From: a candidate division FCPU426 bacterium
GTDB lineage: Bacteria > Oederibacteriota > Muellerivitia > Muellerivitales > Muellerivitaceae
Direction: 5' to 3'
NCBI GenBank assembly: GCA_030041545.1
Contig: JASHNQ010000037.1
Span: 1 to 56,924, forward strand
DNA length: 56,924 nucleotides
Within the stretch, counting starts at the first letter, position 1. Every line of letters begins with the position of its first letter. Below, one piece after another: positions 17,801 through 41,987 of this stretch. The notes under the pieces were generated by a model. That model was not told the origin of the DNA. It searched no databases and saw only the letters and a list, made by a program, of their open reading frames with translations. The translations under genes were made by a program, and so were the position numbers.

Positions 17801-17840
17801 AAAAACCCCCTCCCATTGGGGGAGCGGGTAGGTGAGGGGG
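17801..17840 (-). terminator. Terminator-like palindrome (copy of the CCCTCACCC repeat family)
   Basis: Read on the minus strand, CCCCCTC is followed after about 20 bases by GAGGGGG and then TTTTTGTTG, which is the form of an intrinsic terminator for the response-regulator gene ending at 17936. The sequence also belongs to the repeat family found at 41216-41260 and 41444-41485 inside a coding gene, so its terminator function may be secondary to its being a dispersed repeat. Confidence 0.5.
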
Positions 17841-40868: not shown

Positions 40869-41987
40869 CTAAATAAGGGTTTTCCAAAAACTCGCCAAAT
40901 CTTCCGGAAGCGGGTCCTCAAAAACCATCCGCTTTCCGGATTCAGGATGGTTGAACTCCAACCGATAGGCATGTAAGGCCGCCCGGGGCAAGAGCACCCT
41001 TTCCTTCAACCAATCGTCCCAATCGTTCTCGTAAAAATGCAGGAAGGTCTGGTCGTTGCCTGAATAAAGCTTGTCTCCCACGATGGGAAAACCCAAGTGC
41101 TCCAAGTGGACACGGATTTGATGGGTGCGGCCTGTCAAAGGCCGGGCCTGGACGAGTGAAAAATCCCTTTTCGTTTCCAAAAGCTCGAATTCGGTGATGC
41201 AGTGTTTATCCTCTACCCTCACCCCGCCCTCTCCCCTTAAGGGAGAGGGTGAAAACCCCTCCTGATTCACAGCCAATGGTTCGACTTGGCTCGCCACTGG
41301 CCGGGTCGTTGATTTTTTTTCATTTTTGACCACAGCCAGTTTCATGCGGATCTCGCTTCCCTTCTTGGGTCCAATGGGGGCATCCACGGTCGTCTGTCCC
41401 GGGGGGAAAGAACCAAAAACGATGGCTAGGTAAGTCTTAATGACCCCCCTCACCCTACCCTCTCCCGCAAGGGGCGGGGGTTTCACCGTCAATCCTTTGG
41501 CCCCCCATTGATCCTGTAGGGTCTTAAGGTATTTTTTATCCTTTACCAATACCAAGAGACCGCTGGTTTCCGAATCCAGCCGGTGGACTAGGTGAAAATC
41601 GCGCGCTTCGGGCCGGTCCCGTCGCAGCAGGAACATAAGGGTGTTCTGGAAATAGGCCCCGATGGCGTGCACGGGCAGGGGCGCGGGTTTGGAAACAACC
41701 AGTAATTGTCCGTCCTCGTAGACTGGCCTGTAATGCGGGTTGACCCGGGGTTCTTCCCAGGTGGTCGTGGTATAGGCCACCTCGTCCCCCGCCCTCAAGG
41801 GCTGGTTTTCGGAAGGGGCCAGGCCGTTCACCTTGATCTTCCCTTCGGCGATCCTGGCCGCCCATTCCCCTTCCGTATGGTACGCAAAGCGCTTGGCCAG
41901 GAATTCCAGTAGGGTTTGAGAGCTTTTTTGGCCCAAACGCGTCACAAGGGTGATGGGTTTAGGGAGGGTGGTGAGTTTCTTTTCCAT
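40869..41987 (-). CDS. RluA/RluD-family pseudouridine synthase with two inserted repeat peptides
   Basis: This 372-aa enzyme has an N-terminal S4 domain (residues about 15-75) and the catalytic motif HRLDSETSGL (Asp138), with TGRTHQIRVHL in the C-half. It would isomerise uridine to pseudouridine in rRNA. Two segments look foreign: about residues 168-182 (PPPLAGEGRVRG) between the catalytic part and IKTYLAIVFG, and about 243-258 (SPLRGEGGVRV). Both are translated copies of a dispersed palindrome, in frame, with no stop. Which RNA site is modified is unknown, and activity may be affected. Confidence 0.9.
   Translation of the reverse strand: MEKKLTTLPKPITLVTRLGQKSSQTLLEFLAKRFAYHTEGEWAARIAEGKIKVNGLAPSENQPLRAGDEVAYTTTTWEEPRVNPHYRPVYEDGQLLVVSKPAPLPVHAIGAYFQNTLMFLLRRDRPEARDFHLVHRLDSETSGLLVLVKDKKYLKTLQDQWGAKGLTVKPPPLAGEGRVRGVIKTYLAIVFGSFPPGQTTVDAPIGPKKGSEIRMKLAVVKNEKKSTTRPVASQVEPLAVNQEGFSPSPLRGEGGVRVEDKHCITEFELLETKRDFSLVQARPLTGRTHQIRVHLEHLGFPIVGDKLYSGNDQTFLHFYENDWDDWLKERVLLPRAALHAYRLEFNHPESGKRMVFEDPLPEDLASFWKTLI
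41216..41260. repeat. CCCTCACCC palindrome copy inside the pseudouridine synthase gene
   Basis: The stretch contains CCCTCACCCCGCCCTCTCCC followed by a complementary GGGAGAGGGTG. It matches copies at 41444-41485 and 17806-17840 (reverse). It adds about 15 codons without disturbing the frame. Confidence 0.75.
41444..41485. repeat. CCCTCACCC palindrome copy inside the pseudouridine synthase gene
   Basis: The stretch CCCCTCACCCTACCCTCTCC plus GGGGCGGGGG is the second in-frame copy, about 185 bp from the first. It encodes PPPLAGEGRVRG in the protein. Confidence 0.75.

Follow-up and report, generated by a model that had tools for sequence, protein, structure and literature searches.

The rluA locus and its two insertions

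The window studied here, the whole 56,924-nucleotide stretch of contig JASHNQ010000037.1 from a candidate division FCPU426 bacterium, carries on its minus strand at 40869..41987 an intact ORF of 372 codons that encodes a RluA/RluD-family pseudouridine synthase, referred to below as rluA, and that contains two in-frame repeat insertions. The product matches Pfam PF00849 (PseudoU_synth_2) with an E value of 1.5e-23 over residues 94-297, the solved structures of RluC and RluD match it on either side of the inserts, and the HRLD and TGRTHQIRVHL motifs are conserved despite the inserts. Over 315 codons, with the inserts excluded, dN/dS is 0.114 against the closest relative (G002) and 0.116 against another relative of the same genus (G001), at dS values of ~1.0 and ~1.6 respectively, and the gene evolves under purifying selection.

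The original prediction held that two palindromes lie inside this gene without breaking it, and both are indeed present at the positions it gave, within the single minus-strand ORF, with the insertions evident in a codon alignment with seven relatives. The size it gave for each, about 15 codons, does not hold, as the net gain is 16 codons at site 1 (relative to G002) and 36 at site 2. Site 1 is a variable segment (GAKGLTVKPPPLAGEGRVRGVI; 41439..41504, minus strand) between QW and KTYLAIVFG; the interval from QW to KTYxAxVFG comprises 22 residues here and 6 in G002. It includes a type-A-like repeat (41447..41481, minus strand) that reads CCCCCGCCC-CTTGC-GGGAGAGGG-TA-GGGTGAGGG on the coding strand and has two stem mismatches. 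Site 2 is an inserted segment that includes TTRPVASQVEPLAVNQEGFSPSPLRGEGGVRVEDK (41202..41309, bounds approximate, minus strand); in RluD it aligns opposite the HPMGK segment, and it is 36 residues longer than its counterparts in G001 and G002. The type-B-like repeat within it (41216..41250, minus strand) reads CCCTCTCCC-TTAAG-GGGAGAGGG-CG-GGGTGAGGG on the coding strand, and the palindrome itself accounts for about 12 of the 36 net codons. The two palindromes, CCCTCACCCCGCCCTCTCCCCTTAAGGGAGAGGGT at site 2 and CCCTCACCCTACCCTCTCCCGCAAGGGGCGGGGGT at site 1, are 77% identical, and both repeats are single and share one orientation. The placement of the inserts in loops is taken from alignment with E. 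coli RluD only, the predicted structure (from a 3-sequence alignment) having a mean pLDDT of 40.

Compared with shuffled sequences, the site-2 copy is the more stable hairpin (z-score -3.5), and the site-1 copy has no excess fold stability (-0.2). A third copy, at 17806..17840, has a z-score of -2.0. It is intergenic, as had been proposed, with a minus-strand gene on each side and a run of T nearby on the minus strand, but it is a degenerate member of the repeat. We find neither terminal inverted repeats nor target-site duplications around the rluA copies. The non-palindromic part of site 2 (~70 nt) has no repeat match in the first 739 kb of genome sampled, the best match there being 14 nt. 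Within it, the sequence at 41277-41300 is similar to a different repeat of the TTCGACAGGCTCA type, a likeness that is only suggestive.

Presence and absence in relatives

Site 2 is empty in all seven relatives and filled here alone. Site 1 is empty in five of them (G002, G003, G005, G006 and G008) and filled in two, so that the expected absence from relatives holds for the second site and only in part for the first. In G001 the site carries GAKVLKLEPSPLEGEGRVRGV at an equal distance from the tryptophan codon, in a gene that is likewise intact; in G007, from another genus, it carries EPSPLAGEGRVRG, 3 nt nearer and followed by more repeat DNA. In these two genomes the position, identical or nearly so, is thus occupied by the same repeat DNA, rather than by unrelated DNA that encodes the same residues. 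The rluA site 1 of G007 (L037) also contains, adjoining the BoxC copy, a palindrome that looks like a GTAG REP, GTAGGGGCAAGGCATGCCTTGCCC, twice and in frame.

In the gene tree of rluA the nearest partner of this genome (G000) is G002, with support 0.86, and G001 falls outside, although G000 and G001 have in common both the site-1 insert and the derived residues that flank it, KTYLA and VFGS. Either G002 lost the insert through replacement by an insert-free allele, or the segment passed between G000 and G001, and this pattern around site 1 (window 41400-41540; L032, L033) hints at such local recombination or allele replacement. The copy in G007 is probably a separate event.

Identity of the repeat

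The history of BoxC/PIT repeats goes back to the 1990s, and to our knowledge their way of spreading is not known. Judged by its sequence, the palindrome in rluA is this repeat, the BoxC/PIT/TM_ECO intrastrand-triplex repeat of E. coli, and we do not regard it as rickettsial. TM_ECO consists of a C-stem, a G-stem and a third G-strand able to fold back into a triplex, and occurs as types A and B, sometimes as an inverted A+B pair (PMC4666352). The strict pattern, CCCTCNCCC-N3-6-GGGNGAGGG-N3-GGGNGAGGG with one mismatch permitted, has 56 matches in 1.32 Mb of sampled sequence, rising to 121 when the second loop may be 2 or 3 nt, and neither version matches the reversed sequence; applied to a known E. 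coli locus, the pattern test recovers the two copies there. Across the 3.8 Mb genome, CCCTCACCC-N1-4-CCCTCTCCC matches exactly 179 times and has no match in the reversed control, which excludes chance. The search for further copies therefore yields some 180 rather than the three first noted, and the repeat is abundant both in this genome of the FCPU426 phylum and in its family.

Both rluA copies are variants of the motif, with a second loop of 2 nt where the published definition has 3 nt and, at site 1, the two stem mismatches. The repeats of this genome agree with those of E. coli (Holder et al. 2015, PMC4666352) in the 9-nt C-stem, the G-stem and third G-strand, in the existence of A and B types and of A+B inverted pairs, and in a high copy number that varies among relatives. 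Read directly, the E. coli hrpB-mrcB locus (L131) has the same inverted A+B layout that prevails here, where the order within pairs among 94 clusters is GC in 40 and CG in 16. The differences are that the host belongs to FCPU426 whereas the E. coli system is proteobacterial, that the second loop of type A is TA here and TTA in E. coli, and that GGGTAGGG is present in type A here and absent from type B and from E. coli type A. In E. coli K-12 MG1655 the motif is always intergenic, and earlier work found no association with mobile elements (PMC4666352). An intergenic location is a described property of the MG1655 copies and not part of the motif definition; it mostly applies here, yet at least 3 of the 94 clusters lie within proteins, in frame, and most copies are found in the MITE-like elements described below.

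MITE-like elements carry most copies

The clusters come from a sample of 81 stretches (1.32 Mb, 35% of the 115-contig draft genome) partly chosen around known copies, with ORFs called mechanically. At least one terminal-inverted-repeat end belonging to one of four families (F1 to F4) accompanies 59 of the 94 clusters, a share of this preferential sample, and the elements measure ~150-180 bp (up to 210). F1 elements (ends GAGCCGGTAACAAAATT, ~152 bp) have an exact 3-bp TWA target-site duplication in 11 of 12 pairs, and F2 elements (ends GAGACTCTAACAAAAC, 153-210 bp) have the same in all seven. F3 elements (ends CGGAACTATGCACTTGGC, ~170 bp) show an exact 8-bp duplication in 5 of 9 cases; in F4 (ends GGTAGTG..TCAGTTTG, ~160 bp), where the repeats are in the opposite order, an 8-bp duplication agrees at 7 or more of its 8 positions in 8 of 9. 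In F1 to F3 the members of one family have similar spacers and flanks, which differ from family to family, and the BoxC halves are similar throughout. Examples of such MITE-like pairs in this genome are found at L064, L067 (8380-8531), L068, L070, L073, L078, L084 and other loci.

Three further features of these elements were seen in passing. At L068:10830-11005, L071 and L080 the BoxC hairpins enclose in their loop a second palindrome, of the TTCGACAGGCTCA type. At L221 (~1968-2188; contig C51) F4-like ends with an apparent 8-bp duplication enclose, in place of BoxC, a different palindrome, CCTGGGGCTTTAGCCCCAGG. F1 ends occur at contig ends in L133:1534-1752 (C8) and L134:1-62 (C82), and the F1 element of C8 runs into unrelated sequence within the BoxC core.

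F1 ends are restricted to this genome and G002, apart from single matches in a few others, and the repeat is present without them in G001, G003 and G007, which makes it independent of F1. F4-like ends surround pairs in G003 and G001, and in G073, which lies outside the phylum, two copies of the BoxC pair (L207, L208) have different ends, CTTTCAATTACCCAC, with an apparent duplication of ~9 bp. Five E. coli pairs that we checked have no flanking inverted repeats with duplications.

In their length, terminal inverted repeats and target-site duplications, these 59 clusters resemble bacterial MITEs. They differ from them in that one BoxC core is common to unrelated ends, that the rluA copies have no such ends, and that no parent transposon was found in the sampled sequence or among F1 ends across the draft genome. 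Those genome-wide F1 ends either form pairs ~150 bp apart or stand alone (decayed or at contig ends), and none flank a transposase. Variant F4 ends showed no clear transposase among their ORFs, taken without a family search.

Copies within genes and the comparison with Rickettsia

Three of the 94 clusters, again a share of the preferential sample, lie clearly within proteins, rluA accounting for two and a beta-galactosidase for the third, whereas about 77 would be expected under random placement; 82% of the sampled bases fall in ORFs of at least 200 codons. This count leaves out N- or C-terminal extensions and low-complexity matches, among them L081:15000, L088:5610 and L143:14859, likely chance matches that we exclude as in-gene repeats. 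The repeat is strongly depleted from genes.

The third case is a GH35/42-type beta-galactosidase of 721 residues (L111:15716-17878, contig C93) that contains an in-frame BoxC pair. Its residues 576-620 (~45 codons) are missing in G001, G002 and G005, which match both flanks and have next to nothing in between. Both halves are present in the order of F4, the flanking letters (GACACCCC ... GTGAAG) are F4-like, and to the eye the insert fits a decayed F4-like element. Elsewhere, G007 has an in-frame copy in a 690-residue membrane-type protein.

The original prediction likened the repeats to Rickettsia palindromic elements (RPEs), a class of mobile palindromes that encode peptides. The likeness, which is one of description and not of compared sequences, extends to palindromic repeats lying in frame within housekeeping genes that remain unbroken. 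As a statement of class it is not supported, since the repeat is the known BoxC/PIT/TM_ECO motif, most of its copies are in MITE-like elements outside genes, and 3 of 94 clusters are within proteins against the ~77 expected. The large in-gene share of RPEs is not seen here, nor is an element of ~150 bp with a conserved peptide, as the unit here is ~35 bp and the encoded peptide varies with strand and frame. RPEs themselves are ~150 bp long, and nearly half of them lie in ORFs in R. conorii (PMC10969869).

A related possibility is a selfish palindrome of RPE-like character, adapted to life within proteins and encoding a tolerated peptide. The two rluA copies and the one in beta-galactosidase are what such a repeat might leave, together with the related in-frame copies in the rluA genes of G001 and G007 and in the G007 membrane protein; furthermore, the G-rich strand of type A has one open frame only, and both rluA copies use it. 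We nevertheless regard this as quite unlikely, given how rarely the repeat occurs in proteins in sequence so largely made up of long ORFs, and given the size and location of RPEs in R. conorii. Moreover, in the A and B consensus every frame of the C-rich strand can be read through, and in-frame survival thus needs no special coding design.

Less likely readings: REP elements, regulation and gene decay

Another reading would make REP elements of the copies inside genes, moved by a transposase of the RAYT (Y1) type. GTAG/CGTC REPs are likewise short palindromes, single or paired and sometimes intragenic and in frame, and among their intragenic hosts the pseudouridine synthase genes truA and truB recur (PMC3733652). 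Several Y1 transposases of ~320-345 residues are encoded in this genome, and the GTAGGGGCAAGGCATGCCTTGCCC repeats at site 1 of the G007 gene resemble GTAG REPs. The sequence of our repeat is different, however, its GTAG or CGTC tag is inconsistent (GTAG is absent from type B and from E. coli type A), and RAYT genes are unlinked to it across relatives: G001 and G003, with 27 and 60 copies, have no PF01797 match, and G006 has Y1 transposases and zero copies of the repeat. On this distribution, specifically the presence of the repeat in G001 and G003, dependence on RAYT was rejected. IS200-type transposition is not known to leave target-site duplications, and the MITE-like copies have them. Taken together, these observations make mobilisation by RAYT very unlikely.

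That the inserted repeats regulate rluA, for instance as a DNA triplex or an RNA hairpin slowing transcription or translation, has in its favour that E. coli TM_ECO sequences form an intrastrand triplex in vitro (PMC4666352); we find it hard to credit, because the stem at site 1 is weakened and because in earlier work, summarised in PMC4666352, PIT elements had no promoter, terminator or RNA-polymerase effect. Least credible of all is that rluA is a decaying pseudogene in which the insertions mean nothing, for although two insertions in one gene are unusual, its 372 codons are open, HRLD and TGRTHQIRVHL are kept, dN/dS is ~0.11, and the G001 gene is intact with site 1 occupied.

Origin and significance of the in-gene copies

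The best explanation, to which we give a probability of roughly 85%, is that a known repeat, BoxC/PIT/TM_ECO, landed in frame in rluA and was tolerated there. Solo repeats, A-like at site 1 and B-like at site 2, would have entered two loop-encoding places of the gene together with extra flanking DNA. They would have lasted because, with this length and frame, the gene stays open, and because another 16 and 36 residues, probably in surface loops and perhaps neutral, can be accommodated by the enzyme. The repeats appear to travel mainly as A/B inverted pairs, as the cores of transposase-mobilised MITEs; transposases acting on the terminal ends would move the BoxC cores, and the solo copies in rluA would be remnants or separate insertions. 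Mobility is what we infer from the anatomy of the elements, no autonomous transposase or insertion event having been seen.

A wider proposal, which we advance tentatively and at somewhat less than even odds, is that BoxC/PIT pairs are a recurrent core of unrelated MITE families across phyla, spread by different transposases (hence duplications of 3, 8 and ~9 bp), and that the copies in rluA and beta-galactosidase are insertion scars turned protein loops.

The repeat itself is already known; what is new relative to the E. coli reports is the MITE-like setting of most copies and the existence of in-frame copies within proteins. The location of most copies within miniature transposon-like elements offers a possible means of spread for a repeat whose mobility is not known, and the clean target-site duplications in several of the MITE-like families make the mobility of BoxC/PIT testable. 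Some copies are now part of conserved enzymes, and in this way new protein loops may arise, on a small scale, in bacteria other than Rickettsia.
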